From Actinomycetospora sp. TBRC 11914 (GTDB lineage Bacteria > Actinomycetota > Actinomycetes > Mycobacteriales > Pseudonocardiaceae): a stretch of DNA of 64,000 bases. Both the position numbers and the translations under genes were made by a program. Shown one piece after another: positions 32,122 through 56,959 of the stretch. The notes under the pieces are model-generated. The model saw nothing but the letters and a program-made list of their open reading frames with translations. It made no database searches and was not told where the DNA came from. The DNA is taken from the NCBI RefSeq assembly GCF_012933465.1, contig NZ_JABBND010000012.1, positions 1 to 64,000 of the forward strand. Direction: 5' to 3'. Each line of letters starts with the position of its first letter. Position 1 is the stretch's first letter.

Positions 32122-32140
32122 CGCAGTAACTGAAGAGCAA

Positions 32141-35835: not shown

Positions 35836-36879
35836 GTGCCGACCACCGTTCCCGCCCTCGTCACCGAGGCCGCCGGGAAGCCGCTCGAGCGCTCGACGAT
35901 CGAGCGCCGGGACCCGAAGCCGCACGACGTCGTCATCGACATCGCGTACGCCGGCATCTGCCACTCCGACATCCACCAGGCCCGCGACGAGTGGGGCGGC
36001 AGCGAGTTCCCGATGGTCCCCGGCCACGAGATCGCGGGCACCGTGTCCGCGGTCGGCCCGGAGGTCACGAGGTACTCCGTCGGCGACCGCGTCGGCGTGG
36101 GCTGCTTCGTCGACTCCTGCCGCGAGTGCGCCAACTGCCGGGCCGGCGAGGAGCAGTTCTGCACCCGCGGGGAGGTCCAGACCTACAACGGCCGCGAGTA
36201 CACCGGCGAGCAGACCTTCGGCGGCTACTCCACGCAGGTCGTCGTCGACGAGGGCTACGTCCTGCGCATCCCCGACGGCATCGAGCTCGACGTCGCCGCC
36301 CCGCTGCTCTGCGCCGGCATCACCCTCTACACGCCGCTGACCCACTGGGGCGCCGGCCCGGGCAAGAAGGTCGCCGTCATCGGGATGGGCGGTCTCGGGC
36401 ACGTCGGCGTCAAGATCGCGCACGCGCTCGGGGCCGAGGTCACGGTGCTCTCGCAGACGCTGTCGAAGGAGTCCGACGGCAAGCGCCTGGGCGCCGACCA
36501 CTACTACGCGACCTCTGACGACGAGACCTTCACGACGCTCGACAGCACGTTCGACCTCATCGTCAACACCGTCTCCGCCGACCTCGACGTGGAGCGCTAC
36601 GTCGCGCTGCTGGCCCTGGACGGCTCGATGGTCAACGTCGGCATCCCGGCGAACTCCGCGTCGATCCACGCGTTCTCGCTGGCCAACGGTCGTCGCAGCC
36701 TGTCCGGATCGAAGATCGGGGGCATCCGCGACACCCAGGCGATGCTCGACTTCTGCGCCGAGCACCACATCGGTGCCGAGGTCGAGACGATCACCGTCGA
36801 CGACGTCAACACGGCCTACGACCGCGTGGTCGACTCGGACGTGCGCTACCGCTTCGTCATCGACACGGCGTCCTTCTAG
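35836..36879 (+). CDS. Zinc-dependent NAD(P) alcohol dehydrogenase (AdhC/CAD type)
   Basis: This 347-residue medium-chain dehydrogenase has catalytic zinc ligands GICHSD (Cys42) and GHE (His64, Glu65), and the structural zinc cluster [15 protein letters not shown]. The nucleotide-binding loop is [13 protein letters not shown]. Sequence is of the cinnamyl-alcohol-dehydrogenase/AdhC branch, which usually prefers NADPH and broad aldehydes. The GTG start has GAGGGGAA 5 bases upstream. Its TAG stop is the left end of a 76-bp palindromic element. Confidence 0.92.
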
Positions 36880-36952
36880 GTGGGCGAAGCCCTCGTGAGC
36901 AGAAAGTGTCGGTATACCGGCACTTTCTGCTCACGAGCGCGCAGCGCACCTA
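36877..36952. repeat. 76-bp palindromic element, family A (complete copy)
   Basis: The element runs from the TAG stop of the alcohol dehydrogenase (36877-36879) to CTA (36950-36952), the stop of the convergent protease gene. The core arms CTCGTGAGCAGAAAGTG (36892-36908) and its exact reverse complement (36921-36937) surround CGGTATACCG. The same length and layout recur at 56884-56959. Confidence 0.9.
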
Positions 36953-37852
36953 GATCAGGCCGAGGCTCTTGAACGGGCCGCCGTTGACCACGGCGAGGTC
37001 ACCGGGGGCGCCGTGGCTCCGGGCGTAGGCGAGCATCTTCGCGAGGTCGCCGATGGAGTTCGTGCCGGGCGCCGGGGTGAAGTTCAGCGTGGAGAGCACG
37101 CCGAGCGCGCTGCCGTCGGCGGAGAGGAACGCGCTGCCCGAGTCGCCGGGGATGCCCGGGGTCACGGTGGCGACGGTGTGGCTCCACCCGTGCCCCTGGT
37201 CGCCGAGGCTGGTGCCGACCTTCGGGCTGAGGACGGGGACGCCGCCGCGCAGCTCGGAGTTGCCGTAGCTCACGACCCGCTCGCCGGGCGTCGTGCCGTT
37301 CGTGTCGACGCCGACCGGCCCGCCGAAGAACGGCACGGACGGGGTCACCTTCGCGACGTCGGCCGGGTCGACCTGGACGAGCGCGAGGTCGTTGTAGGCG
37401 CAGGCGTCGGGGTCCTTCTCGTGGGCGCCCTGCATGGCCAGCCACGAGTTGTAGACGAGCTTCCCGGGCTTCGAGGCCCCGGTGATCTCCACCGGCGTCC
37501 CGAGCGGGAGCGACTTCGACGTGCAGCCGTCGGTCTCGTCCGCCGAGCCGGTGCCCGAGCAGTGGGCGGCCTGGCCGAGGTAGGTCTTGCCGCCGCCGGT
37601 GTAGACGAAGTTCGCGGTGCACTGGGCTCCGGCGGTGCGCATCTGCACGCCCGGGTGCACGCCGCTGCCCATCGCCGCCCCCAGGTCCGGGCCCGCGACC
37701 GGCGCGGGAGCGGGGGCGGGCACCGCCACGTGGGGTGCCGGGGCCGGCGTCGGGGTCTGGTCGGCCCAGGCCGACCCGGTCAGGGCGGCGGTCAGGGCCG
37801 CGGCCCCGAAGAGCACCGTCGCCAGCCGTCGTCCCCGCCGATGCGCGCGCAT
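36950..37852 (-). CDS. Secreted trypsin/chymotrypsin-like serine protease
   Basis: This 300-residue exported protein has a signal peptide (basic MRAHRRGRR, hydrophobic core, cleavage after AWA at 30) and a Pro/Ala/Val spacer. The peptidase domain has a full triad: His97 in AAHC, Asp155 in NDLALVQV, and Ser238 in GDSGS. Cysteines at 78, 98, 110 and 151 could form two disulfides. The fold is S1-like but shorter than trypsin. Its TAG stop is the right end of the palindromic element. Confidence 0.88.
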   Translation of the reverse strand: MRAHRRGRRLATVLFGAAALTAALTGSAWADQTPTPAPAPHVAVPAPAPAPVAGPDLGAAMGSGVHPGVQMRTAGAQCTANFVYTGGGKTYLGQAAHCSGTGSADETDGCTSKSLPLGTPVEITGASKPGKLVYNSWLAMQGAHEKDPDACAYNDLALVQVDPADVAKVTPSVPFFGGPVGVDTNGTTPGERVVSYGNSELRGGVPVLSPKVGTSLGDQGHGWSHTVATVTPGIPGDSGSAFLSADGSALGVLSTLNFTPAPGTNSIGDLAKMLAYARSHGAPGDLAVVNGGPFKSLGLI

Positions 37853-37920
37853 GACCACCCCAACGGCCGTGATCGTCGCGGGTGACGCACGAACTGCGAC
37901 GCCGCGCACACCGATGGTGA

Positions 37921-38694
37921 TCAGCGGGTCTGCAGGGCCGCCCAGGTGGTCGCCGCGGCCACCCCGCCGTCGGCGGCGAGGGTCTGGCCGTTGATCCACC
38001 GGCTCTCGTTGGACATCAGGAACGCGACCACCGAGGCGATCTCGTCGGCCTCGGCGTCGCGCCCGGCGGCGGAGCGCTGGCGCGCGAGCCGGCGGGGGTC
38101 CGAGGAGCGCTCGACGTCGGGCAGCTGGGGGGTGCGGACCGGTCCCGGGGCGACGGCGTTCATCCGCACGCCGTCGGGCCAGGTCAGCGTCGAGGACGCC
38201 GTCGTGTACGCGAGGACGGCCTCCTTCGAGATGTCGTAGATCGACCGGTCCGGGCGGCGCTCCCGGCACCAGCGCAGCCCCTCCTCGAACGACGTCGTCG
38301 CGAGCAGCGGCCGCAGCTCGGCGAGGTGCGCCACCCAGTGCCTGCCCTCGGAGGACGACACGTTGACCACGGAGCCGCCGCGCTGGATGCGGGGCAGCAG
38401 CCGCTCGGTGAGGTGGCGCATGCCGAGGAAGTTCACGGCGAGCACCTGGTCGGCGGGGGACGTCCCGGGCAGGCCGGCGACGTTGGCGAGGGCGTCGATG
38501 CGCTCGTCCAGCCGCTCGACCGCGACGTCGATCGCGCGTGGATCGGCCAGGTCGCACCGCACGTGGGCGATCTCGCGGTCCGGCGGGTCCCGCCGGTCGA
38601 GCCCCACCACGGTCACCCCGTGGCGCGAGAGGAACTGTGCGAGCGCGCGCCCGACCCCCGACGAGGCTCCGGTGACGACGAAGACGGTGCTCAT
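37921..38694 (-). CDS. Short-chain dehydrogenase/reductase
   Basis: This 257-residue SDR has the cofactor motif TGASSGVG at residues 8-15, a later NVSSSEG with the active-site serine region, and YDISKEA giving the catalytic Tyr and Lys spaced YxxxK. Asp in the GLDRRD position favours NAD(H). The C-terminus INGQTLAADGGVA is standard for classical SDRs. An extra stretch (SFEEGLRWCRERRPDRSI) before the YxxxK motif is longer than usual. TACTCT lies 10 bases before the ATG and no ribosome site is seen. Substrate unknown. Confidence 0.9.
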   Translation of the reverse strand: MSTVFVVTGASSGVGRALAQFLSRHGVTVVGLDRRDPPDREIAHVRCDLADPRAIDVAVERLDERIDALANVAGLPGTSPADQVLAVNFLGMRHLTERLLPRIQRGGSVVNVSSSEGRHWVAHLAELRPLLATTSFEEGLRWCRERRPDRSIYDISKEAVLAYTTASSTLTWPDGVRMNAVAPGPVRTPQLPDVERSSDPRRLARQRSAAGRDAEADEIASVVAFLMSNESRWINGQTLAADGGVAAATTWAALQTR

Positions 38695-38853
38695 GGCACC
38701 GGTCAGAGTAGACGGCGCCGAGGCGGTCACGGCCAGGTGATGCTCGACGCGTTCCCTGCTCCCCGCGGGTGACCCTCCTCGTCACGGGTCGTCCGGACGG
38801 ACCAGACATTCGGTGGGGTCGCCCGACCCCGTCGGACGCGGCGAGAGGGCACC

Positions 38854-39681
38854 ATGGTCACCGTGAAGCTCTTCGTCGTCGATGCGTTCACGTCCGTGCC
38901 CTTCACCGGCAACCCGGCGGCGGTCTGCCTGCTCGACGCCGACCGGGAGCCCGACGCGGCGTGGATGCAGGACGTCGCGGCCGAGATGCACCACTCCGAG
39001 ACCGCGTTCGTGGATCTCTCCACGCTCGAGCGCACCGGCGAGATCGGCCTGCGGTGGTTCACCCCCACCGTCGAGGTCGACATCTGCGGGCACGCCACGC
39101 TGGCCTCCGCGCACGTGCTGCTCGAGGAGGGCCTGACGACGGCGCCGCTCGCCTTCCGCACGGCCTCCGGGGTGCTGCGCGCCGACCGCGCCGGGCGCGA
39201 CGCGATCTCGCTCGACTTTCCCATCGACGTCCCGGTCGCGGGTCTGCCGGGCGGGTACTTCGCCGACGAGTTCGCCGACGCCCTGGGCGCCTCGGTGATC
39301 GCGGTGGCGCGCTGCCGCTACGACGTGCTCGTCGAGGTCTCGGCCGCCGCGGAGGTCCGCGAGCTCGAGCCCGACCTCGCGGTGCTGCGCGCCGCCACCG
39401 GCCGCGGCGTCATCGTCACGGCGGCCGCCGACGACGGCGTGGACGACGCCGACTTCGTCTCCCGCTTCTTCGCGCCCGCCGTCGGGATCGACGAGGACCC
39501 GGTCACCGGCTCGGCCCACTGCTGCCTCGCGCCCTACTGGTCGGAGAAGCTCGGCAAGCCCTCGCTCGTCGGCGCCCAGCTCTCGCGCCGGGGCGGCACC
39601 GTGGGCGTCGAGATCGCCGGCGACCGCGTGCTGCTGCGCGGCAACGCCGTGACGATCAGCCGGGGCGAGCTCACCGTCTGA
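38854..39681 (+). CDS. PhzF-family isomerase/epimerase
   Basis: This 275-residue protein has the two-lobed diaminopimelate-epimerase-like fold: VVDAFTSVPFTGNPAAV at the start, HHSETAF with Glu49 as the likely catalytic base, FTPTVEVDICGHATLASAHVL, and DEDPVTGSAHC in the second lobe. It is the right length for PhzF relatives. No phenazine genes are near, so the substrate is unknown and a general isomerase role is more likely. It is preceded by no strong ribosome site and is convergent with the LLM gene. Confidence 0.9.
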   Translation: MVTVKLFVVDAFTSVPFTGNPAAVCLLDADREPDAAWMQDVAAEMHHSETAFVDLSTLERTGEIGLRWFTPTVEVDICGHATLASAHVLLEEGLTTAPLAFRTASGVLRADRAGRDAISLDFPIDVPVAGLPGGYFADEFADALGASVIAVARCRYDVLVEVSAAAEVRELEPDLAVLRAATGRGVIVTAAADDGVDDADFVSRFFAPAVGIDEDPVTGSAHCCLAPYWSEKLGKPSLVGAQLSRRGGTVGVEIAGDRVLLRGNAVTISRGELTV

Positions 39682-39697
39682 GCCGTCTGTCGCGACC

Positions 39698-40570
39698 TCA
39701 GGCCCGCAGCGTCGCGATCACCTGCTCGGCGAACCGCAGCACCGGCTCCGTCGAGGACGGGTTGCCGAAGTCCATGACGAAGTGGTCGGCGCCCGCGGCG
39801 ACGCGCGCCGCCAGCTCCTCGACCAGGCGCGCCGAGTCCTCGTCGCTCTCGGGCAGGGCACGTTCCAGCGTCACCGACACCTCGATGCCGTCCGGGTCGC
39901 GGCCCGCGTCCTCGGCGGCGCGGCGGACGATGTCGAGCCGCCGACCCCAGCCCTCCTCGCCGGGCGGGGCGTTCCACGCGTCGGCGATCCGCCCGACCAG
40001 CGGCAGCCCGATCTTCTCGCCCGCCGCGCCGATGCAGACCCGCGGCGGCGGGTCGGGCAGCGGCGGCGCCGCGGCGCCGTCGATGCGCCAGTACCGGCCC
40101 GCGAACGACGGCGAGTCCTCGGTCCACATCCGCCGGCAGATCGTCACGGCCTCCTCGAGCTGCGCGAACCGGACCGACGGCCTGGGGAAGTCGTAGCCGT
40201 AGGCGGCGTACTCCTCGGCGCGCCAGCCGGCGCCGATGCCGAGGACGAAGCGCCCGCCGGAGAGGTGCTGCAGCGTCGCCGCCATCTTCGCGAGCAGCGG
40301 CGGGTGCCGGTAGCCGACGCCGAGGACGTGGTGGCACAGCTCGACGCGCTCGTGCCGCGCGGCCAGCCAGGTCAGCGTCGTCCAGGCCTCCATGAACGGG
40401 TCGGTCGGGGTGTCCATCCCGTAGAAGTGGTCGGCGAGCCACAGCGAGTCGAAGTGGGGCAGCGCCGTCGGGAGGATCGCGGTGTCCTGGTCGACCACGA
40501 TCGGACGGCGGCCGCTCCAGCGGTTGCCGATCGCGGGGGAGAGCCAGCCGAACCGGGGCGTCCTCGTCAT
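39698..40570 (-). CDS. LLM-class flavin-dependent oxidoreductase
   Basis: This 290-residue luciferase-like protein has FDSLWLADHFYG, the SGGRFVLGIGAGWRAEEYAAYG motif, and CIGAAGEKIGLPLVGRIADAWN, typical of the TIGR03560/F420 group. Its ATG directly abuts the TAG stop of the nitrilase-like gene (TAGATG), so the two are coupled. Cofactor is inferred from family. A two-step conversion with the amidase partner is possible. Confidence 0.9.
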   Translation of the reverse strand: MTRTPRFGWLSPAIGNRWSGRRPIVVDQDTAILPTALPHFDSLWLADHFYGMDTPTDPFMEAWTTLTWLAARHERVELCHHVLGVGYRHPPLLAKMAATLQHLSGGRFVLGIGAGWRAEEYAAYGYDFPRPSVRFAQLEEAVTICRRMWTEDSPSFAGRYWRIDGAAAPPLPDPPPRVCIGAAGEKIGLPLVGRIADAWNAPPGEEGWGRRLDIVRRAAEDAGRDPDGIEVSVTLERALPESDEDSARLVEELAARVAAGADHFVMDFGNPSSTEPVLRFAEQVIATLRA

Positions 40571-41428
40571 CTACAGATCTCCTCCCTCGTCGAGCAGCCG
40601 GTCGATCTCCCGGCGCAGCAGGCCCAGCCGCGCCTCGCGCACGAGCGGGATGTCCCGCCGGCGGCGCCGCACGTCGGCCAGGTCGATCTCGAAGGTCAGC
40701 GCCTGCTCGGCCTCCGGCCCTTCGCCGCACTCGCCGATGACCTCGCCCCACGGGTCGACGATGTGGGAGCCGCCCCAGAACGTCAGGCCGCCCTCCACCC
40801 CCACGCGGTTCACGAACACGACGAACAGCTGGTAGATGCGCCCGTAGAAGGTCGTGATGTTGCGCCAGTACTCGCGGGAGTCGTAGCGCTCGGGCGACAT
40901 CGACTGCGCCGAGTTCGCCGGCACGAGCAGGATGTGGGCCCCGTCCTGGGTGGACAGGAACGCCACCTGCGGCTGCCAGGCGTCGTTGCAGATGAGCGTG
41001 GCCGCGCGGTGCCGGCCGCCGCGCACCCCGTAGGCCCGCGAGTGCTGCCCGGGCAGGAAGTGCTTGCGCTCCTCGAACGTCGCGTACGTCGGCAGGTAGA
41101 GCTTGCGGTGGGTGTGGACGAGGTTGCCGTCCTCGTAGTAGCCCGCGCTGTTGTAGGTGTGCAGGCCGTGGGAGCCCGCCTCCGGGTAGCCGACGAGGAT
41201 CCCGGCGCCGCCCGCGCGCTGTGAGAGCCGCAGCAGGCGCCGGTCGTCCGGCGAGATCGAGAGGTCGTGCGTCACGTCGCCGACCTGGTAGCCCGAGAGC
41301 GCGAGCTCCGGGAAGACGACGAGGTCCGACTCGCTCTCGACGGCCTCGGCGATGACCCGCTCGGCCCGCTTGAGGTTGCCGTCGAGGTCGCCGAGGGTGG
41401 CGTCGGTCTGGGCCAGGGTGATCCGCAC
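40571..41428 (-). CDS. Nitrilase-superfamily carbon-nitrogen hydrolase
   Basis: This 285-residue amidase/nitrilase has the Glu-Lys-Cys triad: Glu41 in FPELALSG, Lys109 in HRKLYLP, and Cys147 in LICNDAW. The NDAW rather than CYD context suggests an amidohydrolase such as an N-carbamoyl or amide hydrolase, not a true nitrilase. The GTG has GAGGAG 5 bases upstream. It is the first gene of a two-gene operon with the LLM oxidoreductase. The C-terminus is arginine-rich and helical. Confidence 0.9.
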   Translation of the reverse strand: MRITLAQTDATLGDLDGNLKRAERVIAEAVESESDLVVFPELALSGYQVGDVTHDLSISPDDRRLLRLSQRAGGAGILVGYPEAGSHGLHTYNSAGYYEDGNLVHTHRKLYLPTYATFEERKHFLPGQHSRAYGVRGGRHRAATLICNDAWQPQVAFLSTQDGAHILLVPANSAQSMSPERYDSREYWRNITTFYGRIYQLFVVFVNRVGVEGGLTFWGGSHIVDPWGEVIGECGEGPEAEQALTFEIDLADVRRRRRDIPLVREARLGLLRREIDRLLDEGGDL

Positions 41429-41496
41429 GATGGCTCCTCGGTCGCTTCGGACGGGGTCGTCGCGAGCGGAGCCGGGGGCAAGGCGCCTCCGGCCCC

Positions 41497-42864
41497 TCAC
41501 CGCGGTCGGCGCGCCCGGCGCACGAGCACGACCGCACCGACGACGAGTCCACCGAGGACGGCGGCCCCGACGGTGCCGATCAGCGCGACCGCGCGCGCCC
41601 CGGAGTGTGCATCCCCGCCTCCGGCCAGGTCGACCCGGCCCGCTCCGGCGCCGTCGGCGGCGTCCACCGGGCCCGCCAGCGCGGCGACCGGGTCGACGAT
41701 CCCGGCGCCGACGGCGTCGTCGCGGGGGCCGCCCGCGGCGTCGGCGGTGGCGACGATCCGGGCCGTCACCTGCCGGGCCGACCAGGTCGGGAAGCGCGCG
41801 CGGACGAGCGCGGCCACCCCGGCCACGTAGGGCGCCGCGAAGCTCGAGCCCTCGATCGGCGAGCCCGCCGGGTCGGCCGACGCGCCGGCGGGCTGCACGC
41901 GGTCGACGAGCCCCGGCCCGGTCGGCGAGAGCGACACGACGTCGGTGCCCGGCGCCGCGACCGACACCCAGGGCCCGCGGACGGTGCGCGGCGAGGGCCG
42001 GCCGTCCTGCCCGACGTAGCCGACGGACAGCACGTCGTCGCCGAACCACGCCGGCGCCACGACCTGGTCCTTCGTGGCCCGTCCGTCCTCCGTCCCCGAC
42101 GGGTCGGCCTGCACGCACGCCCCCGACCCGGCGTTGCCGGCCGCGGCGACCACGACGACGTCGCGGTCCACCGCCTCCCGGACCGCCGCCCGCAGCGGCG
42201 CCAGCACCCCCGGGGCGACCGCGACCGGCAGGCAGGCGGCCTCGGAGATGTTGACGACGGTGGCCCCGAGGGCCACCGCGTGGCGCAGCGCCCGGGCGAG
42301 GCTGGTGACGTCGCCGGCGCCGGGCTGCGCCCGGCCGGGCACCGCCACGGTGGCGCTGCTCTGCCGGATCGCCAGGATCCGCGCCTCCGGGGCGACCCCG
42401 ACGAAGCCCGCGGGTCCCGACGACGGGTCGGGGGCGGCACCGACGATCCCCGCGACCAGGGTGCCGTGGCCGTCGCAGTCGGCGGTGCCGCTGCGGCCCG
42501 GGCCCACGAAGTCGCCGCCGTCCAGCAGCCGCCCGGCGAGCCGGGGATGCGGGGCCACCCCGGTGTCGATCACCGCGACGGTCTGGCCGGCGCCCCGGCC
42601 GAAGCGCCAGGCGTCGGCGATCCGGAGCCGGTCCTGCGCCCACGGGTGCGTGGTGACCCCGGCCGCGTCGCCACCGTCGAGCGGAGCCACGCAGGCGACC
42701 CGCTGCACCGCGCCGGGCAGCGGCGACGGCGCCGGGTCGAGGCCGGCGAGCAGCGCCGGGTCGGGTGGGGGCGGCCCGGGCACGGCGGCCGCGGCGGGCA
42801 CCGCGCCGAGCACGCCGAGGACGGCACCGAGCAGCACGGTCACCACCCGCCCGCCCCGGTGCAC
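41497..42864 (-). CDS. mycP: Mycosin-type subtilisin protease (type VII secretion protease homologue)
   Basis: This 455-residue membrane-anchored S8 protease has a signal-like start, the triad Asp100 (VIDTG), His133 (DGHGTLVAG) and Ser341 (GSSFAAPYVAG), and a C-terminal transmembrane helix followed by VRRARRPR. The architecture is that of MycP proteases, which sit outside the membrane and support ESX secretion. No EccB/C/D/E or WXG100 genes are in the window, so it is an orphan. TACCCT lies 7 bases before the GTG, so a leaderless start is likely. Confidence 0.9.
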   Translation of the reverse strand: MHRGGRVVTVLLGAVLGVLGAVPAAAAVPGPPPPDPALLAGLDPAPSPLPGAVQRVACVAPLDGGDAAGVTTHPWAQDRLRIADAWRFGRGAGQTVAVIDTGVAPHPRLAGRLLDGGDFVGPGRSGTADCDGHGTLVAGIVGAAPDPSSGPAGFVGVAPEARILAIRQSSATVAVPGRAQPGAGDVTSLARALRHAVALGATVVNISEAACLPVAVAPGVLAPLRAAVREAVDRDVVVVAAAGNAGSGACVQADPSGTEDGRATKDQVVAPAWFGDDVLSVGYVGQDGRPSPRTVRGPWVSVAAPGTDVVSLSPTGPGLVDRVQPAGASADPAGSPIEGSSFAAPYVAGVAALVRARFPTWSARQVTARIVATADAAGGPRDDAVGAGIVDPVAALAGPVDAADGAGAGRVDLAGGGDAHSGARAVALIGTVGAAVLGGLVVGAVVLVRRARRPR

Positions 42865-43096
42865 GCCAGCGAGGGTAGGGCGGCCGCTCCGCCCGCGGGG
42901 GCCGTTCCCGACAGCTCGCCCGTGATCGCACCGGGAGGACCGCCGCCGCCGGTGTCGACCTGTCGATCTCCGCGGCGACCCGGCCGCTCCACGCGACGTG
43001 ATCACGCCGGGACGGCCCGTGACGGGCACCGGTCGCCGGGCGAGACGGCCGTCGCGGAGCGGACCGGGGGCTGGCGTGTCCGCCTAGGCTGGAGGC

Positions 43097-46173: not shown

Positions 46174-46181
46174 TCGCCCCG

Positions 46182-46218
46182 GTAACCCGCACGTCACATC
46201 TGGTTACGTGAGCTAAAC
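46182..46218 (+). promoter_or_regulatory. Putative GlnR-type nitrogen box upstream of asnB
   Basis: GTAAC (46182-46186), six bases, GTCAC (46193-46197), then five bases, GTTAC (46203-46207), six bases, TAAAC (46214-46218). This resembles the actinobacterial GlnR layout gTnAC-n6-GaAAC, with the second half the better match. It ends 48 bases before the asnB start. Confidence 0.5.
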
Positions 46219-48144: not shown

Positions 48145-48507
48145 CTGATCCGCTCGCCACCCACCGGTCCGGTACGAACGGCCGGTTCATCACCGAAGAA
48201 GGTGACGAACCGGCCGTTCGTGCGTTCCGGGGCGGAACACCCAGGGCGCCCCCCGGTCGCCGTGGGGCAGCACGGCGACCGGGAGGCGCGGGAACCCCGT
48301 GCGGCCGGGCGCGGTCGGTCGCACGGGGTGTCGTGGGGCGCGTCGTCGCGCACGGGAGGTCATCGGCCTCTCGGGGCGTCGTGTGTGTAACGCTCCGGGA
48401 GTCGACCACGATGCGGGCGATCCGGTCCCCGGTCGGTCGCTTCGCACGACACCCTCTCGCGGTTCGCCCGGTCGGGTCGCTGACACGATGGGGGCACAAT
48501 TCGTGGG
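48145..48507. other. Intergenic region with three successive hairpins
   Basis: No gene was recognised in these 363 bases. Besides the family B repeat there is a perfect 13-bp stem, CCCGGTCGCCGTG (48252-48264) with its complement at 48271-48283, and a perfect 10-bp stem, ACCCCGTGCG (48294-48303) with its complement at 48320-48329. They could form a terminator array after asnB or part of a small RNA. CACAAT (48495-48500) is the likely -10 box of the next gene. Confidence 0.6.
48174..48221. repeat. Inverted repeat, family B (copy 2)
   Basis: Arms at 48174-48194 and 48201-48221 (21 bases each) pair with a single mismatch at 48189 and a 6-base loop. The sequence ACGAACGGCCGGTTC matches the copy at 21619. 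Both copies are followed by GTGCG. Confidence 0.82.
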
Positions 48508-49824: not shown

Positions 49825-49839
49825 CCGGGCCTGTCGTGG

Positions 49840-49960
49840 AGCAATGGCACGTTCCTGGCGTCAGGTGCGAGCATCGTGCCATTGCCGGCGAGTGCGGCGC
49901 GGGCCGGACATGGGTGAGCGGCGCCGTCCTGGCGCCGGACGCCAGGAACGTGCCATTGCT
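49840..49960. repeat. Long inverted repeat, family C relative (copy 3)
   Basis: Perfect 23-bp arms lie at 49840-49862 and 49938-49960 around a 75-base loop, between convergent genes. The right arm contains CAGGAACGTGCCATTGC, close to CAGGAACGTGGCGTTGC in the copy at 53971. An extra GTGCCATTGC lies inside the loop at 49876-49885. Confidence 0.8.
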
Positions 49961-49980
49961 GGTCCCCGGCGAGCCCGACG

Positions 49981-50337
49981 CTAGAGCGCCATCCCGACGA
50001 CGAGGCCCAGCGCGGCCGCGCCGAGCCCGGCGAAGGTCTGGATGACGACGTCGAGCACGGCGTGGGTGCGCTCCCCGGCCTCGGCCAGGCGCACGGTCTC
50101 GTAGCCGAGGGTGGACCAGGTCGAGAGGCCGCCGCAGAAGCCGGTCCCGACGACGGCCGTGACCACCGAGCCCGACGCGGCCCCGGCGACGACGCCGAGG
50201 ACCAGCGACGCGACGAGGTTCACCGTGACGGTGCCCCAGGGGAACGAGGTGCCGTGCGCGGACTGGACCGCGCGGTCGGTGAGGTAGCGCAGCGGGGCGC
50301 CGACCGCGGCGCCGAGGACCACCCAGAGCGCGGTCAC
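49981..50337 (-). CDS. crcB: CrcB/Fluc fluoride exporter, subunit 1
   Basis: This 118-residue protein has four hydrophobic segments and the family motifs GAPLRYLTDRAVQ, FPWGTVTVNLVASLVLG and GTGFCGGLSTWSTLGYE. CrcB proteins form dual-topology fluoride channels in the inner membrane. It overlaps the second crcB gene by 4 bases (GTGA), so two different subunits probably make a heterodimer. The GTG start is set by that overlap. Confidence 0.92.
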   Translation of the reverse strand: MTALWVVLGAAVGAPLRYLTDRAVQSAHGTSFPWGTVTVNLVASLVLGVVAGAASGSVVTAVVGTGFCGGLSTWSTLGYETVRLAEAGERTHAVLDVVIQTFAGLGAAALGLVVGMAL

Positions 50338-50804
50338 CGCCGGCCTCCCCGCGTGGTCGCCCGGGCCAGCGCGAGGCCGAGCGCCGCGGCGCCGACCGAG
50401 CCGAGCACGGTCGCGGCCAGGTAGCCGAACGCGGTGCCGAGGTGGTGGGACAGGAGCAGCTGCTGGCTGTCGACGGCGAACGTGGAGAACGTGGTGAACC
50501 CGCCGAGGACGCCGACGCCGAGGAACGGGCGGACCAGCGGGTGGGCCTCGCGGACCTCGGCGACGTGCACGACGAGCACGCCCATGAGCAGGCAGCCGAC
50601 GACGTTGATGAGCAGGGTCGCCGTCGGGAACCCGCCGTGGGGGGTGGGCCACGCGAGCCCGATGCCCCAGCGGGCCAGGGCGCCGAGCGCGCCGCCGACG
50701 GCCACCGCGGCGACGGCGGCGCCCTGGCCGCGCAGGACGGCGGTCCCGGGTTCCCGCCCGGCGATGACGTCGTCGGTGATCTCGGGTTCCTCGGCGTGGC
50801 TCAC
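50334..50804 (-). CDS. crcB: CrcB/Fluc fluoride exporter, subunit 2
   Basis: This 156-residue protein has about 35 acidic N-terminal residues, then four membrane segments with GGALGALARWGIGLAW, FPTATLLINVVGCLLMGVL, and GVLGGFTTFSTFAVDSQQL, the fluoride-channel signature with the phenylalanine box. The GTG at 50804 was chosen for its AGGGAG 6 bases upstream. A longer form from ATG 50840 lacks such a site. It is first in a two-gene operon. No fluoride riboswitch was recognised upstream. Confidence 0.9.
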   Translation of the reverse strand: MSHAEEPEITDDVIAGREPGTAVLRGQGAAVAAVAVGGALGALARWGIGLAWPTPHGGFPTATLLINVVGCLLMGVLVVHVAEVREAHPLVRPFLGVGVLGGFTTFSTFAVDSQQLLLSHHLGTAFGYLAATVLGSVGAAALGLALARATTRGGRR

Positions 50805-51195
50805 GGCGGCTCCCTGGGCGCGGGTCAACGGCACCGGCATCGTGCTCGGTGCCGGTCGTCGGGCTCCAGGGACCGTTGGCTCCGACCCGGCGAGGGGGTC
50901 GGCGCGGTTGTCGGCGGGCCCCACCGCCATCGGACGAGACGGTAGCGCGCGCGTCGTCGCAGCGCACAGAGGTGATCTCCCCCGGTGTGCGACAGGCCAC
51001 TTCATCAGCGCAAACAGACTGCTTGCATCAGCTAGCACTCGTGTTAGCGTGGGTGTCAGCCGGCATCGGGGGACGGTGATCCGGCAGAGACCGGACCACC
51101 TCCGGTGCGACCGGGCGGAGCGGCCGGGTCCCAGGACCGACCGGAGCCGTGCGCCCGACGAGACACGACATCGTCCGAATCAGGGGAGATCACCC
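50805..51195. promoter_or_regulatory. Divergent intergenic region with hbhA promoter
   Basis: TTGCAT (51023-51028) and TAGCGT (51045-51050) with a 16-base spacer form a good promoter for the HbhA-like gene. Between them GCTAGCAC (51031-51038) and GTGTTAGC (51041-51048) form a near-perfect palindrome (7 of 8), a likely operator. The transcript would have about 140 bases of leader. The rest of the 391 bases showed no gene. Confidence 0.55.
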
Positions 51196-51915
51196 ATGGC
51201 TGTCACGTTCCCGACCAAGTTCGACGTCCGCGAGGCCCGCGACCAGGCCACCAAGGCCGTGTCGGACGCCGTCGACCCGCTGCGCGCGCCGTCGCTGGCG
51301 CTGCTGGGCCTCGGCGACTACGCCGTCGCCAGCGCCCAGGAGGCCTTCGCCCGGGTGCAGGCCGGCGCCACCGAGGTCCAGGCCCGCGTCGAGGACCTGC
51401 CCTCGGAGCTGCAGGAGCTGCGCAGCAAGCTGTCCGCCGAGGACTTCCGCCGGCTGGCCGACTCCTACGTCGCCGCGGTGCGCAGCGTCTACGAGGACCT
51501 CGTGAAGCGCGGCACCAGCGCCTACACGAAGATCAAGGCGCAGCCGCAGGTCAAGCAGGCCCTCTCGACGGTCGACCAGGTCTCGACCGAGCTCGAGAGC
51601 CGGCTCGAGGACACCGTCGAGGAGTTCCGCGTCCGCGGTGAGGGCGTCCTGGCCGGCGTCACCAAGCAGACCCGCTCGGTCGGCGAGCGTGCCGCCCGCT
51701 ACACCCAGCGGGCGAGCACCGAGGCCGCCGAGGCGCTGACCGAGGCGAGCACCGAGGTCGCCGCCGAGGTCAAGGAGGCCGGTGACGAGGTGGCCTCGGA
51801 GACCCGCAGCGCCGCCCGCAAGACCGCGGCGAAGACCGCCCCGAAGAAGCAGGGCCCGAAGAACGCGCCGAAGTCCGCGGCCACCACCGCGGCCGACAAG
51901 CGCGCCAAGAGCTGA
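51196..51915 (+). CDS. hbhA: Heparin-binding hemagglutinin (HbhA)-like protein
   Basis: This 239-residue protein has a long coiled-coil-like region (PLRAPSLALLGLGDYAV, then charged helices) and a lysine/alanine-rich tail (AARKTAAKTAPKKQGPK near 205-239), as in mycobacterial HbhA. In mycobacteria HbhA is surface-exposed and binds heparan sulfate. In a free-living actinomycete, a role in lipid bodies, cell surface or DNA binding is as likely. GGGGAG precedes the ATG by 8 bases. The next gene, DUF2516, is the same neighbour as in mycobacteria. A strong terminator hairpin follows. Confidence 0.85.
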   Translation: MAVTFPTKFDVREARDQATKAVSDAVDPLRAPSLALLGLGDYAVASAQEAFARVQAGATEVQARVEDLPSELQELRSKLSAEDFRRLADSYVAAVRSVYEDLVKRGTSAYTKIKAQPQVKQALSTVDQVSTELESRLEDTVEEFRVRGEGVLAGVTKQTRSVGERAARYTQRASTEAAEALTEASTEVAAEVKEAGDEVASETRSAARKTAAKTAPKKQGPKNAPKSAATTAADKRAKS

Positions 51916-51932
51916 CGCTCCCCGCCCCTGCC

Positions 51933-51971
51933 GACGGCCCCGTTCCTCCCCTCCGGGAGGGCGGGGCCGTC
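51933..51971 (+). terminator. Strong hairpin terminator after hbhA
   Basis: GACGGCCCCG (51933-51942) pairs with CGGGGCCGTC (51962-51971), and inside it CCTCCC (51945-51950) pairs with GGGAGG (51955-51960) around a 4-base loop. It starts 17 bases after the stop codon. No T tract is present. Confidence 0.8.
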
Positions 51972-52047
51972 GTCGTGTGCGGGGCCGCGCGCGGAACCGG
52001 ACACCGGGCGCCGTCCGAGCGGTCCCACCAGCACGTATCCTCGCCGT

Positions 52048-52374
52048 GTGCTGCTGCAAGTGCCGGTGTTCGAGTACCTCGACTACTACCTGTCGATGCT
52101 GATCTGGGTGGTGGCGATCCCGGTCGGTCTGTACGCGTTCATCCACGCCCTCCTGCAGCGGGCCGACGCGTTCACCGCGGTCGACAAGCTGACGAAGCCG
52201 GCCTGGTGCGGCATCACCGGCGTGGGCGCGCTGCTCCTGGTGATCTCGGTCGGCGGGCCGGTCGCGAGCCTGGCGATCCTCTGGCTGGTCGCGCTGTGCG
52301 CCGTGCTGGTCTACCTCGTCGACGTGCGCCCGAAGGTGGTCGAGGTGCAGCAGGGCGGCGGGGGCCGCTGGTGA
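52048..52374 (+). CDS. DUF2516-family membrane protein
   Basis: This 108-residue protein has three hydrophobic stretches (LSMLIWVVAIPVGLYAFIHAL, ITGVGALLLVISVGGPVA, LAILWLVALCAVLVYLVDVRP) and the DUF2516 ending YLVDVRPKVVE. It is next to hbhA as in mycobacteria. TATCCT (52036-52041) lies 6 bases before the GTG, indicating a leaderless transcript separate from hbhA. Function unknown. Its end overlaps the next gene by GTGA. Confidence 0.88.
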   Translation: MLLQVPVFEYLDYYLSMLIWVVAIPVGLYAFIHALLQRADAFTAVDKLTKPAWCGITGVGALLLVISVGGPVASLAILWLVALCAVLVYLVDVRPKVVEVQQGGGGRW

Positions 52375-52928
52375 CCGCGGACCTCGCGCCCGCGGCGGGG
52401 ACCCTGCAGCTCGTCCCCGCCCTGACCCGTCCTGACCTGCTCGCCGAGCCGGTGGCCGCCGCGCTCGCCGCCCTCCCCGCCGACGCCGCCGCGTCCTGCG
52501 CCGTCGCCGCGATCGACCCGGACCTCGCCGACACCGCGGCCTTCTGCGAGGCCTACGGCTCCCCGCTCGAGGCCTCGGCGAACTGCGTGGTCGTCGCCGG
52601 ATCGCGCTCGGGGGAGCAGCGCTTCGCCGGCTGCGTGGTCCTCGCGACGACGCGGGCCGACGTGAACTCCGTGGTCCGCAAGCGCCTCGACGTCCGCAAG
52701 GCCTCGTTCGCGCCGATGGACACCGCGGTGGAGCTCACCGGCATGGCCTACGGCGGCATCACGCCCTTCGGCCTGCCTGCGGCGTGGCCGCTGCTGGTCG
52801 ACCCCGCGGTCCTGGCCACGCCGGCCGTCGTCGTCGGGAGCGGGATCCGGGGGAGCAAGCTCGTCGTGCCCGGGGCGGTGCTCGGGCAGCTGCCCGGCGC
52901 GGAATCCCTGGAGGGACTCGGCCGTTAG
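52371..52928 (+). CDS. YbaK/EbsC-family aminoacyl-tRNA deacylase-like protein
   Basis: This 185-residue protein has the YbaK/ProX domain features VVRKRLDVRKASFA, ELTGMAYGGITPFGLP and GSGIRGSKLVVPGAVL. Members remove mischarged amino acids from tRNA. A specific substrate cannot be assigned. The N-terminal 60 residues form a less typical alanine-rich extension. It is co-translated with the DUF2516 gene through a 4-base overlap. Confidence 0.82.
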   Translation: MTADLAPAAGTLQLVPALTRPDLLAEPVAAALAALPADAAASCAVAAIDPDLADTAAFCEAYGSPLEASANCVVVAGSRSGEQRFAGCVVLATTRADVNSVVRKRLDVRKASFAPMDTAVELTGMAYGGITPFGLPAAWPLLVDPAVLATPAVVVGSGIRGSKLVVPGAVLGQLPGAESLEGLGR

Positions 52929-52964
52929 CGGTATCGTTCAACCTTCAAGTACCTGGAGGACACG

Positions 52965-53963
52965 ATGCCCGCCGTCACCGTCGCCGACCTGACCGTCCTG
53001 CCCCGCCTCGCGGACCTCGGGTCCGACACCGGGGCCACCGAGCGCGCCGTGCGGCGCGTGACCACCGCGCCCCGCGGGTTCGAGGGCGAGGGCTTCCCGG
53101 TCCGGCGTGCGTTCGCCGGGGTCGACCTCGCCGACCTCGACCCGTTCATCCACATGGACCAGATGGGCGAGGTCGAGTACGCGCCCGGCGAGCCGAAGGG
53201 CACCGCGTGGCACCCGCACCGCGGGTTCGAGACCGTCACCTACATCATCGACGGCACCTTCGAGCACGCCGACAACCACGGCGGCGGCGGGCTGATCACC
53301 AACGGCGACACGCAGTGGATGACCGCGGGCGGCGGCGTGCTGCACATCGAGCGGCCGCCCGAGGCCCTCGTCGCCTCCGGCGGGCTCTTCCACGGCCTGC
53401 AGCTGTGGGTGAACCTGCCGCGGGCGCAGAAGTGGGCGGCACCGCGCTACCAGGACCTCCGCTCCGGGACGGCCGCCCTGGTCACCTCGCCCGACGCGGG
53501 CGCGCTCGTGCGGGTCATCGCGGGGACGGTGGACGGCTGGTCCGGCCCCGGATCGACCTACACCCCGATGACGATGGCCCACGCGTCGGTCGAGCCCGGC
53601 GCGGCGCTGCACGTGCCGTGGGACCGCGAGCAGAACGCGCTGGCCTACGTGCTCTCCGGCGACGGGTACGCGGGCGCCGAGCGGCGGCCGGTGTCGACCG
53701 GGCAGCTCGTGGTCTTCGGGCCGGGCGAGTCGCTGCGGGTCGCGGCCGCCGTCGGGCAGGAGGGGCGGCACCCGAAGCTGGAGGTGGTGCTCCTCGGCGG
53801 CCGCCCGCTGCGGGAGCCGGTCGCGTGGGGCGGGCCGTTCGTGATGAACACCCGCGAGGAGGTCCGGCAGGCCTTCTCCGACTACTCGAAGGGCCGGCTG
53901 GGCGCGGTCCCGGCCAAGCGGGTGCCGCACGCGGGGGCGTCGCGGGGCGTGCAGACGACGTAG
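52965..53963 (+). CDS. Pirin-family cupin protein
   Basis: This 332-residue bicupin has the metal-site motif WHPHRGFETVTYIIDG, with HxH and a following Glu, then MTAGGGVLHIE, and a C-terminal RxPLREPVAWGGPFVMNTREE typical of pirins. Members act as quercetinases or redox-sensitive co-regulators. AGGAGG-like GGAGGA precedes the ATG. Two TTCAA repeats (in GTTCAACCTTCAAG, about 52936-52949) lie in the promoter and could be an operator. Its TAG stop begins the family C repeat. Confidence 0.9.
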   Translation: MPAVTVADLTVLPRLADLGSDTGATERAVRRVTTAPRGFEGEGFPVRRAFAGVDLADLDPFIHMDQMGEVEYAPGEPKGTAWHPHRGFETVTYIIDGTFEHADNHGGGGLITNGDTQWMTAGGGVLHIERPPEALVASGGLFHGLQLWVNLPRAQKWAAPRYQDLRSGTAALVTSPDAGALVRVIAGTVDGWSGPGSTYTPMTMAHASVEPGAALHVPWDREQNALAYVLSGDGYAGAERRPVSTGQLVVFGPGESLRVAAAVGQEGRHPKLEVVLLGGRPLREPVAWGGPFVMNTREEVRQAFSDYSKGRLGAVPAKRVPHAGASRGVQTT

Positions 53964-53970
53964 GTCCCGG

Positions 53971-54025
53971 TGTCAGGAACGTGGCGTTGCGGACGTCCAG
54001 TGTCTGCAACGACGCGTTCCTGACA
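53971..54025. repeat. Inverted repeat, family C (copy 2) between convergent genes
   Basis: Arms at 53971-53994 and 54002-54025 (24 bases each) pair with mismatches at three positions and a 7-base loop. The left end follows the pirin TAG stop by 7 bases and the right end abuts the stop of the DUF2505 gene (54026-54028). TGTCAGGAACG and CGTTCCTGACA are its outer arms, shared with the copy at 12227. Confidence 0.82.
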
Positions 54026-54529
54026 TCAACCCTTGTCGGCCAGCCAGCGGCGCGTGAACTCGTCCTCGCCGTCGAGCAGCCCACCGACCTGCTCGTTGAC
54101 GATCGACTCGATCTTCCCTGCCACGAACGGCACCGGGACCTCGGCGCTGCCCTCGACGGTGCTCTCCGAGCCACCCTCGACGTCGTGCAGGGACTGCTTG
54201 CCGGTCAGCTTGCCGGGCAGCCCCCGCACCGTGACCTCGAAGGTGCCCCGGTAGCCGCCGGAGCCGTCCGGCGTCCACGTCTCGACGCGGTCGAGCACCA
54301 GGTCACCCCCGGTGAAGCGCTTGATGACGCCCGGCAGGAACTCGACGTCGACGGAGTGCCGGAGCGCGACGCGCGCCCCGGAGTCGTCGACCGAGCGCTC
54401 GACGAGCGCGGGGTCCTTGCCCCCGAGCTCGTCGAGGCGTGCCTGCAGGTAGTCGCCGTCGACCAGGGTGCGGTACACGGTCTCGGCGTCGGCGTCCCAC
54501 CGTGCACGGTGGGAGATCGTCTGGGCCAC
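54026..54529 (-). CDS. DUF2505-family protein
   Basis: This 167-residue protein resembles SRPBCC/START-like lipid-binding folds (HRARWDADAETVYRTLVDGDYLQARLDELGG, then ETWTPDGSGGYRGTFEV). The position divergent from murB is the same as for the mycobacterial homologue. TAACCT lies 8 bases before the GTG, so a leaderless start is likely. Function is unknown. A role in carrying hydrophobic molecules is inferred from fold. Confidence 0.85.
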   Translation of the reverse strand: MAQTISHRARWDADAETVYRTLVDGDYLQARLDELGGKDPALVERSVDDSGARVALRHSVDVEFLPGVIKRFTGGDLVLDRVETWTPDGSGGYRGTFEVTVRGLPGKLTGKQSLHDVEGGSESTVEGSAEVPVPFVAGKIESIVNEQVGGLLDGEDEFTRRWLADKG

Positions 54530-54537
54530 GGGGCGGG

Positions 54538-54547
54538 AGGTTACCGT
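54538..54547. promoter_or_regulatory. Overlapping divergent -10 boxes of DUF2505 and murB genes
   Basis: On the minus strand TAACCT (54543-54538) lies 8 bases before the DUF2505 GTG. On the plus strand TACCGT (54542-54547) lies 6 bases before the murB GTG. The two boxes share two base pairs, so both leaderless genes would start from one bidirectional site and only one polymerase could occupy it at a time. Confidence 0.6.
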
Positions 54548-54553
54548 CGAACG

Positions 54554-55630
54554 GTGCCCACCCGGACGTCGTCGCCCCCCGCGCCCCCGCTCGCCGCGCT
54601 GACGACGCTGCGTCTCGGCGGCCCGGCCCGCCGGCTGGTCCGCGCCGGGAGCGCCGAGGAGATCGTCGCGGCGGTGCGCCGGGTCGACGCGGCGGGGGAG
54701 CCGCTGCTCGTCGTGGGCGGCGGGTCGAACCTCGTCGTCGGGGACGCCGGCGTCGAGGGCACCGTCGTGCACCTGGAGTCCCGCGGGCACACCGTCGAGC
54801 GCGACGGCGCCGACGCGCTGGTCCGCGTCGAGGCCGGCCAGGACTGGGACGAGCTGGTGGCGGCGACGGTCGACGAGGGCCTCGGCGGCCTCGAGTGCCT
54901 GTCCGGCATCCCGGGCTGCGCCGGCGCGACCCCGGTGCAGAACGTGGGGGCCTACGGCGTCGAGACCGCCGACCTGCTGGTCGACGTGACGGTGCTCGAC
55001 CGCGCCACCGGCGAGGTCGCCACGGTGCCCGCCGCGGAGCTCGGCCTGGGCTACCGCACGAGCCGGCTCAAGGGGTCCGACCGCGAGGTCGTCCTCGCCG
55101 CCCGGTTCCGGCTGACCACGGACGGGCTCTCCGCGCCGGTCCGCTACGCCGAGCTCGCCCGCGTGCTCGGGGTGGAGCCGGACACCCGCGCGCCGGCCGC
55201 CGCGGTCCGGGAGGCCGTCCTCGAGCTGCGCCGCGGCAAGGGGATGGTCCTCGACGAGGCCGACCACGACACCTGGAGCGCCGGCTCGTTCTTCACCAAC
55301 CCCGTCGTCGCGCCCGATGTCGCCGACGAGGTGGCGCGCCGCGTCGCCGCCGCCGACCAGCGGCCGGTGACGGCGTGGCCGACCCCCGACGGCCGCGTCA
55401 AGCTGTCCGCGGCCGCCCTCATCGAGCGCGCCGGCGTCCCGCGGGGCCATCCCGGGCCGGACGCCCCCGTGCGCGTCTCCACCCGGCACACGCTCGCGCT
55501 GACCAACCGTGGCGACGGCACGACGGCGCAGCTGCTCGCCCTGGCCCGCGACGTGCGCGACCGCGTCGAGCGGGCCTTCGGGGTGCGCCTGCGGCCCGAG
55601 CCGGTGCTCGTCGGCTGCTCCCTCGACTGA
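54554..55630 (+). CDS. murB: UDP-N-acetylenolpyruvoylglucosamine reductase
   Basis: This 358-residue flavoprotein makes UDP-N-acetylmuramic acid in peptidoglycan synthesis. The FAD domain has VVGGGSNLVVGDAGVEGTVV and LSGIPGCAGATPVQNVGAYG. The substrate domain has LGYRTSRLKGSD, SAGSFFTNPVV with the proton-donating serine, and the final glutamate region RLRPEPVLVG. The GTG start follows TACCGT by 6 bases with no ribosome site. An essential gene, followed by an L,D-transpeptidase as in mycobacteria. Confidence 0.95.
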   Translation: MPTRTSSPPAPPLAALTTLRLGGPARRLVRAGSAEEIVAAVRRVDAAGEPLLVVGGGSNLVVGDAGVEGTVVHLESRGHTVERDGADALVRVEAGQDWDELVAATVDEGLGGLECLSGIPGCAGATPVQNVGAYGVETADLLVDVTVLDRATGEVATVPAAELGLGYRTSRLKGSDREVVLAARFRLTTDGLSAPVRYAELARVLGVEPDTRAPAAAVREAVLELRRGKGMVLDEADHDTWSAGSFFTNPVVAPDVADEVARRVAAADQRPVTAWPTPDGRVKLSAAALIERAGVPRGHPGPDAPVRVSTRHTLALTNRGDGTTAQLLALARDVRDRVERAFGVRLRPEPVLVGCSLD

Positions 55631-55719
55631 CCGAGGAGGATCCGCGCCACACCAGTCACGCGGTTCGGCCCGCCGTCGTTGTGTCAATCAGGGACCATGG
55701 CCGGGGGAGCGGGTAGGGC

Positions 55720-56886
55720 ATGAGGACAACGCAGCGTGTCTGCTGGCTCGTCGCGGCGGCGGTGCTCGTCCTCGCGTCGGCCTGTTCCGGCGGCGGCCCC
55801 GACTCCGCCGGCGCCCAGACCACGCCGGCCCCGCCGCCGGTCCCGGTCGTCTACGCGCCGACGGCGAACGCCACGGACGTCGCCCCGAAGACCCCGGTGT
55901 CGGTGTCGGTGCCCAACGGCCGGCTCTCCGGGGTGGCGCTCACGCCGGCCGGCGGCACGGCGGTCGGCGGGGCGCTCTCGCCCGACGGCACACGCTGGAC
56001 CGCCTCGGGTCCGCTGGCGTACGCGACCACCTACACCTGGAGCGGGACCGCCACGGCCGCCGACGGGCACTCGAGCCCGCTCGCCGGGACGCTGCGCACC
56101 GTCGCGCCGCGCCAGCAGCTCGAGGCGACGCTCAACATCGGCGACGGCCGCACCGTCGGGGTCGCCGCGCCGATCGCGATCCAGTTCGACGGCCACGTCG
56201 CCGACCGGGCCGCGGCCGAGAGGGCGCTGAAGGTCGAGACGTCGCAGCCCACCGAGGGCTCCTGGGCGTGGCTGCCCGACCAGGACGGCGGCTCGCGGGT
56301 GCACTGGCGGCCGAAGGAGTACTGGGAGCCGGGCACGAAGGTGACGGTGACCGCGGACCTGCTCGGGGTCGACCTCGGCGGCGGGGCGTTCGGGCACGAG
56401 GACGTCAGCTCGCACTTCACGATCGGGCGCTCGCAGATCGTCAAGGCCGACGTCAACAGCTTCCGGATGGTCGTCCTCCGCGACGGCAAGCAGGTCATGG
56501 ACGTGCCCGCCTCCTACGGCATCGACGCCGACCCGAACCGGACCACCCGCTCGGGCGTCCACGTCGTGACCGAGAAGTTCACCGACAAGCGGATGGTCAG
56601 CCGCCAGTACGACTACGACGTCGTCGAGCAGTGGGCCGTGCGGATGAGCAACAACGGCGAGTTCATCCACGCCAACCCGAAGTCGGCCGCCGCGCAGGGC
56701 TCGAGCAACGTCACGCACGGCTGCGTGAACCTCTCGATCGGCGACGCCAAGGCCTACTACGACACCGCCCTGTACGGCGACCCCGTCGAGGTCACCGGCA
56801 CCCCGATCCAGCTCTCCGCCCGCGACGGCGACGTCTACGACTGGACGGTGCCGTGGTCGACGTGGAAGGCGCAGTCGGCCCTCTAG
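55720..56886 (+). CDS. Lipoprotein L,D-transpeptidase (YkuD domain)
   Basis: This 388-residue cell-wall cross-linking enzyme has a lipobox LASAC with the lipidated Cys22, two Ig-like domains (about 45-125 and 130-250), and a YkuD domain with HANPKSAAAQGSSNVTHGC and the catalytic His333 and Cys335 in HGCVNLS. It makes 3-3 peptidoglycan bridges and resists most beta-lactams. It matches LprQ/LdtMt5-type proteins by its place after murB. The TAG stop is the left end of a 76-bp palindromic element. Confidence 0.92.
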   Translation: MRTTQRVCWLVAAAVLVLASACSGGGPDSAGAQTTPAPPPVPVVYAPTANATDVAPKTPVSVSVPNGRLSGVALTPAGGTAVGGALSPDGTRWTASGPLAYATTYTWSGTATAADGHSSPLAGTLRTVAPRQQLEATLNIGDGRTVGVAAPIAIQFDGHVADRAAAERALKVETSQPTEGSWAWLPDQDGGSRVHWRPKEYWEPGTKVTVTADLLGVDLGGGAFGHEDVSSHFTIGRSQIVKADVNSFRMVVLRDGKQVMDVPASYGIDADPNRTTRSGVHVVTEKFTDKRMVSRQYDYDVVEQWAVRMSNNGEFIHANPKSAAAQGSSNVTHGCVNLSIGDAKAYYDTALYGDPVEVTGTPIQLSARDGDVYDWTVPWSTWKAQSAL

Positions 56887-56959
56887 GTGGCCTCCGGCCT
56901 CGTGAGCAGAAAATGCCGCTATACCGACACTTAGTGCTCACGAGGCCGAAGGCCACCTA
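56884..56959. repeat. 76-bp palindromic element, family A (complete copy)
   Basis: The element runs from the TAG stop of the transpeptidase (56884-56886) to CTA (56957-56959), the stop of the convergent SDR gene. The outer arms TAGGTGGCCTCCGGCCTCG and the facing sequence pair over 25 bases with one mismatch, and TATA lies near the centre. It is exactly the same length as the copy at 36877. Confidence 0.9.

Follow-up and report, generated by a model that had tools for sequence, protein, structure and literature searches.

In a 64,000-nucleotide stretch of Actinomycetospora sp. TBRC 11914 (contig NZ_JABBND010000012.1, positions 1 to 64,000, or G000:C4:1-64000; here called the window), two pairs of convergent genes are separated by a 76-bp palindromic element, and a third, truncated copy stands at the start of the contig. 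The genome (G000) is 6.52 Mb in 63 contigs. It was originally predicted that each complete copy runs from TAG to CTA, fills the convergent gap, and ends in the stop codons of both neighbours, and that the partial copy ends in the same way; all of this was confirmed, the final CTA of the partial copy being the stop of the gene at 47. The core of the element has an expected chance occurrence of 0 in the shuffled window. Clear Pfam matches were obtained for four of the five proteins adjoining the copies, the gene at 36950 having only a trypsin-like match below the cut-off (Table 1).

Table 1. Copies of the element in the window, their component hairpins, and the adjoining genes.
Feature	Position	Strand	Remarks
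Complete copy 1	36877..36952		ends are the TAG stops of both convergent genes
Copy 1 left mini-hairpin	36882..36892		GGGC-GAA-GCCC
Copy 1 hairpin core	36894..36935		42 bp
Copy 1 right mini-hairpin	36937..36947		GCGC-GCA-GCGC
Complete copy 2	56884..56959		ends are the TAG stops of both convergent genes
Copy 2 left mini-hairpin	56889..56899		GGCC-TCC-GGCC
Copy 2 hairpin core	56901..56942		42 bp
Copy 2 right mini-hairpin	56944..56954		GGCC-GAA-GGCC
Partial copy	1..49		truncated at contig start; contains right portion of core (1-32) and right mini-hairpin (34-44), with CACCTA at its end
CoA-binding protein gene	47..526	-	stop coincides with the end of the partial copy; clear Pfam match
Alcohol dehydrogenase gene	35656..36879	+	ends in copy 1; start at 35656 or 35836 uncertain; clear Pfam match
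Gene at 36950	36950..38269	-	ends in copy 1 from the opposite side; weak trypsin-like match, below cut-off; start uncertain
YkuD L,D-transpeptidase gene	55720..56886	+	ends in copy 2; clear Pfam match
Short-chain dehydrogenase gene	56957..57718	-	ends in copy 2 from the opposite side; clear Pfam match

A dispersed element with a 42-bp core

Pattern counts, a survey of long stretches, and covariance-model matches bear out the prediction that these copies belong to a genome-wide family. The pattern CGTGAGCA-N{10,40}-TGCTCACG occurs at 113 places in the G000 genome and at none in the control; with the spacer set to N{20,32} it is present in all 18 genomes of the genus (1 to 112 places each) and in one of 43 other sampled genomes. 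Searches for the exact core undercount: in G007, for example, there is one exact core, against 121 covariance-model matches (E <= 1e-4, both strands counted). In addition, two contigs start inside or beside a copy (the window at 1-49 and G000:C11:15-56). Palindromes may break assembly, so copy counts could be too low.

The nearly fixed unit of the family is a 42-bp hairpin core, CGTGAGCA-N26-TGCTCACG, and not a sequence of 76 bp from TAG to CTA. The Actinomycetospora form consists, in order, of GGTG, a mini-hairpin, the 42-bp hairpin core, a second mini-hairpin, and CACC. Copies were surveyed in 1.2 Mb of contig C1 (G000) and in stretches of G015 (800 kb) and G003 (400 kb), with no more than two mismatches in the 16 end bases, palindromic inner arms, and lengths of 41-45 and 58 bp. 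This survey called 29 copies in C1, 28 in G015, and 8 in G003, with a 42-bp core in 26/29, 28/28, and 8/8, respectively; the exceptions in C1 are 41, 44, and 58 bp. A looser scan of lengths 34-60, noisy at three mismatches, gave no further clear length class, and at least one longer, disrupted copy in G015 escaped the survey caller. By eye, the 58-bp core (G000:C1:498983) resembles a normal core in which 16 bp spanning the centre have been duplicated.

The whole element is less constant. Among 97 Actinomycetospora copies with a 42-bp core (drawn from 100, of which 67 came from the survey and the window and 33 from the exact-end pattern, and thus not a random sample), the 76-bp register, GGTG...CACC, is kept on both sides in 32, on one side in 38, and on neither in 27. 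Left out of the element set were 12 A. endophytica loci, from the same genome as G015, and matches outside Actinomycetospora and Saccharopolyspora; Saccharopolyspora copies were collected and excluded from the structure counts. The fixed length that had been predicted is therefore a property of the core, where 42 bp is nearly invariant, and not of the element as a whole.

Three hairpins at gene ends

In the 32 copies with both sides in register, each outer arm forms a mini-hairpin, with stems of GCGC, GGCC, GGGC, GCCC, or GTCC and three-base loops that read GNA in the right arm (32/32) and TNC in the left arm (28/32). Inside both arms, 100 % of cells hold standard pairs, and the variable pairs show 9-13 double changes. 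When the same stem columns are paired left to right they match in 16-17 of the 32 copies, and left-to-right Watson-Crick pairing is 0.73 versus 0.75 when re-dealt. The GGTG/CACC closing pairs are uninformative, the copies having been selected for them, and the outer 7 bp, GTGAGCA, are invariant in the aligned set. RNAalifold gives the same three hairpins as the covariation, and pairing is preserved through double changes in the core and in both arms. Covariation thus supports three separate hairpins rather than the single long palindrome originally described, because the outer arms pair with themselves and the left and right arms do not covary. Single copies fold strongly on both strands and, folded alone, prefer the long hairpin; the case for separate arms therefore rests on covariation. 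Core-arm likeness within one element is 0.81 and 0.86, compared with 0.65 and 0.68 between elements, and none of 5000 permutations was as high. Arm motifs are almost always accompanied by a core: GCGC-type arms lie beside a called core in 23/23 cases in C1 and 23/23 in G015, and GGCC-type arms in 11/14 and 4/5.

The location at gene ends was likewise upheld. Genes were called with our own frame-contrast caller, which is crude, in DNA of 75 % GC. The C1 copies comprise 18 convergent, nine tandem, one divergent, and one inside a called gene; for G015 these numbers are 20, seven, none, and one, and for G003 three, four, none, and one, while both copies in the window are convergent. Among assignable copies, 18/28 in C1 and 20/27 in G015 are convergent, compared with 18.9 % and 17.5 % of all adjacent gene pairs (p = 1.7e-7 and 1.8e-10, intragenic calls excluded). 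The 'divergent' call at C1:901693 was set aside, as an uncalled open reading frame (ORF) of 304 aa ends at the edge of this copy. The original prediction was to be given up if copies of other lengths, or away from stop codons, were as frequent as those of the window; other lengths are that frequent for the whole element, not for the core, and in 61 of 67 copies the core has a gene stop no more than 40 nt away.

The 102 stops are concentrated at a few offsets. TAG lies 14 nt before the core in 41 and at 12, 13, 15, or 16 nt in 12, TGA lies inside CGTGAGCA in 29, TAA or TGA lies 12 nt into the core in 11, and the other nine lie elsewhere; used stops fall in all three reading frames. TAG accounts for 56 of these 102 element-associated stops, compared with 18-20 % of genes in the three stretches. 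TA precedes GGTG at 51 of the 55 ends that serve as stops, at three of the 38 where the gene stop lies within the element, and at nine of the 25 that have no called stop. As the T of this TAG is retained only at ends where the gene uses it, the stop is part of the gene, overlapping the first bases of the element. The TAG/CTA termini, present at both complete copies in the window, are therefore not a rule of the family. The proposed stop-codon cassette is right in that stops are offered in all three frames; these follow from the gene-end position, however, and do not make the element such a cassette.

Inherited slots and rewritten cores

For 17 of the 29 C1 copies the orthologous gap could be placed in the G015 stretch, and 12 of these have a called copy in both genomes, with one more having a disrupted copy; in the reverse direction, 20 of 28 G015 copies were placed and 12 were shared. 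Sharing of 12/17 slots has p = 7e-7 against the G015 convergent rate (20/126) and 1e-4 at a rate of 0.25, values that assume independent filling of slots. The shared slots therefore indicate inheritance. Inner-core identity is 0.577 for orthologs (n=11), 0.541 for random cross-genome pairs, and 0.686 and 0.650 within genomes, the orthologs not being distinguishable from random pairs (0.14; small n). An unusual left arm is common to C1:641722 and its G015 ortholog, two elements with a core identity of 42 %; C1:656756 and its G003 counterpart share a different unusual arm. Each species rewrites the letters of the hairpin in its own style; the length, and often the position, is kept.

Comparison of orthologous gene ends, as had been suggested, shows the element present or absent between species, although the empty slots are too diverged for insertion junctions to be read. 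The slot of copy 2 is occupied in G013 and G015 and empty in eight genomes in which both flanks align (gaps of 13-54 bp), seven not being scorable. For copy 1, G015 has the element and G016 a 64-bp form of it, G001 and G003 have what by eye is an unrelated G+C-rich hairpin, G014 has a 1.1-kb gap, and twelve genomes are not scorable. The same slots in other species are occupied by other hairpins, or by none. A sister family, TGTGAACG...CGTTCACA, also of 42 bp, was seen at G000:C1:1145282, C1:893883, and C1:953038, one copy having the GGTG mini-hairpin; at the orthologous gaps C1 893848 and 953013 it occupies the place taken in G003 by the GTGAGCA element.

A scan of named genomes returned at least 102 stretches, most of them, among the matches listed, from Actinomycetospora and Saccharopolyspora. 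The listed stretches hold 105 cores, 78 with at least 7/11 inner pairs and 27 below that, and by eye most of the scattered listed matches in other taxa look like chance. With strict filters, a covariance model built from 32 copies has matches in 31 of 160 genomes and 10 of 46 genera of the family (up to at least 30 per genome). In the best 22 loci, which are the top matches from five genomes (four other genera and G007) with two places counted twice, the core is 42 bp in 22/22 and the letters differ, for example CGTGAGTGG and CGTGCGCGG. The pattern GTGAGTGG-N{16,32}-CCACTCAC is found in 63/160 family genomes, at up to 167 places, with 31 genomes having five or more; as control counts are 0-3 per genome, genomes with 1-2 places may owe them to chance. 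Two GTGAGTGG subtypes have extended outer arms, GGGGTC...GACCC and GGTC...GACC (L300, L303, L311, L317, L322; L316-L332; G094, G124).

In a sister genus (g16), 36 copies at 35 places were collected from two genomes, 33 being the first listed and two being model matches, so that the set is not random. The core is 42 bp in 35/36 of these copies, and one identical 40-mer is common to 12 with differing flanks. As full conservation stops 1 bp beyond the core, with no fixed outer tag, the copied unit in this genus is the core, and the GGTG arms seem to have been added in some lineages. Seventeen copies are convergent, 12 tandem, two divergent, and five not scorable; a qualifying ORF end lies within 30 nt of only 23/36.

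Interpretation and relation to known systems

Homology at scores of unrelated loci implies copying, and the genome-specific style of the cores implies that they are converted, re-copied, or selected by a common reader. The element is probably a dispersed hairpin family of the Pseudonocardiaceae, similar to repetitive extragenic palindromic (REP) sequences, that marks gene 3′ ends, serves at the RNA 3′ end, and is homogenized within each genome. A role of this kind fits the location, the use from both strands, the substitution of other hairpins at the same slots, and the retention of pairing. Transcripts from either side would carry the hairpin at or just beyond the stop codon, where it may end the message in both directions, terminating without a U-tract and perhaps aided by Rho or another factor, and/or block 3′ exonucleases and read-through into the convergent neighbour. 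It can fairly be inferred from the sequence that the element is, as was predicted, a bidirectional terminator, or has another 3′-end role. Copies would have spread by some copying process, and gene conversion or re-copying, focused on the core, may maintain their likeness within a genome.

Several observations weigh against this interpretation. A consensus scan around copies 1 and 2, the two copies scanned, found no T-tract, and the excess of sense-strand G-U over A-C (15 to 7 in 18 one-sided copies) is not significant (p 0.13). G003 alone has little convergent bias (3/7 assignable copies) and shares few slots, at least two of the 11 C1 copies that could be placed, in a pattern test blind to variants. 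Eight species in which both flanks align have nothing at slot 2, so that individual copies are dispensable. Two subtypes of the sister genus, which differ in their outer bases, are often 31-411 nt from the nearest called ORF, farther than the main subtype, and gene conversion would be read from identities rather than from donor tracts.

The closest known kind is the REPs. In the parts of Di Nocera (2013; PMC3733652) drawn upon here, the GTAG and CGTC superfamilies of REP/REPIN sequences are described as extragenic palindromes of high copy number, found mostly between convergent and between co-directional genes and also as inverted dimers, and GTAG REP ends often provide a TAG stop; those parts contain no mention of actinobacteria, Saccharopolyspora, Pseudonocardia, or Frankia. 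Like these, the present element is multi-copy, extragenic, palindromic, and mainly 3′ of genes. However, it has no GTAG/CGTC outer tag (GGTG in Actinomycetospora, in an aligned set chosen for GGTG, and none in g16), its centre is itself a 42-bp hairpin, its arms are almost never seen as singletons, and RAYT was not found in the 18 genomes of the genus. On the basis of the tag, singleton, and RAYT results, it is classed as REP-like, not as REP. E. coli REPs near stop codons stall ribosomes when the hairpin is within 15 nt of the stop (as cited in part of PMC12306157). A hairpin at this distance from a stop codon is common to both, whereas here stops also fall inside the stem and one hairpin is shared by two convergent genes.

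Intrinsic bidirectional terminators between convergent genes also provide a gene-end hairpin usable from both strands. The element shares with them a stable hairpin at the gene end, and differs in that no T-tract follows the stem at copies 1 and 2 and in that one homologous sequence family occurs at scores of loci. DNA uptake sequences of Neisseria and Haemophilus are short conserved words of which inverted pairs form gene-end hairpins. An uptake-sequence origin was rejected, as unpaired words are scarce (in 1.2 Mb, 65 occurrences of CGTGAGCA, 51 of its complement, and 18 pairs) and there are no dense single copies. In the open-licence literature searched, no such Pseudonocardiaceae element was found, although a prior description elsewhere is possible, and five core sequence strings returned only unrelated papers.

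It is possible, though unlikely, that the element is a selfish, non-autonomous mobile palindrome, resembling REPINs or miniature inverted-repeat transposable elements, whose insertion is merely tolerated at gene ends, any RNA role being incidental. Homologous dispersed copies that are present or absent between species, outer mini-hairpins inverted as in a head-to-head REP dimer, identical 40-mers at many sister-genus loci, and stops in all frames would all be consistent with this, and the sequence shared at many loci agrees with the copying implied by the earlier suggestion of a palindrome spreading into gene ends. For that suggestion, however, neither a transposase nor a clean insertion junction was found. 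RAYT-type Y1 transposase (PF01797) is absent from the window's genome (0/1) and from all 18 genomes of the genus, compared with 5/14 control genomes positive, and a RAYT association was therefore dropped. The genes between copies in two clusters look ordinary by eye, with no family search made of them, and no autonomous partner is evident. The sharing of 12/17 placed slots with G015, above chance, the pairing kept through many double changes, and the near absence of arm motifs lacking a core also speak against it. A protein-bound double-stranded DNA site of fixed length, acting as a nucleoid, supercoiling, or convergent-transcription barrier with the hairpin secondary, is improbable. The retention of 42 bp across genera despite turned-over letters, the invariant GTGAGCA in the aligned set, and the gyrase targeting of E. 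coli REPs mentioned in the parts of PMC3733652 drawn upon point towards it; against it, arms vary by genome while pairing stays, and the separate mini-hairpins covary. The fixed length could also come from descent, since the stem would be disrupted by an insertion or deletion in a single arm, and by itself it is no proof of a protein ruler. That these are ordinary intrinsic terminators, arisen independently at each locus and alike by convergence, is highly improbable: gene-end hairpins of other sequence do occupy some orthologous gaps, whereas the shared 16 bp of ends and arms, with no control matches, the identical 40-mers at unrelated loci, and the window copies without a T-tract all argue against it, the sequence common to many loci strongly so.

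The role at gene 3′ ends could also be taken further. In a decidedly speculative form, a trans-acting factor would read the 42-nt hairpin, with ends of the GTGAG...CTCAC type, on both strands as part of a family-wide, sequence-specific 3′-end system; its changing specificity, together with core-limited gene conversion, would rewrite scores of hairpins in step within each genome, the slots being inherited. Terminators are generally regarded as evolving one gene at a time, and such a factor-read system, if real, would be a case of concerted evolution of a terminator-like signal in bacteria. Here, gene-end slots are often inherited and the hairpin is rewritten toward a genome-wide style, with 42 bp kept in several genera. 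This offers a natural system for how repeats become gene-end signals and for whether gene conversion acts on very short tracts, bears on the insulation of convergent genes in GC-rich actinobacteria, and could supply bidirectional end parts for antibiotic-producing Pseudonocardiaceae.

Other dispersed palindrome families, each with its own lengths, were identified from word pairs ranked by Poisson expectation (L118-L177 in G000:C1, L218-L257 in G015, and L258-L277 in G003). These include CGAGGGGA...TCCCCTCG (45 bp, 13 pairs), CCGAGTGG...CCACTCGG (48 bp), GTCAGCGA (23 or 53 bp, 17 pairs), and AAGCGTCG (39 bp). Searched as a whole against Rfam at the gathering cut-off, the window matched three consecutive tRNA genes (32049-32328) and nothing else.

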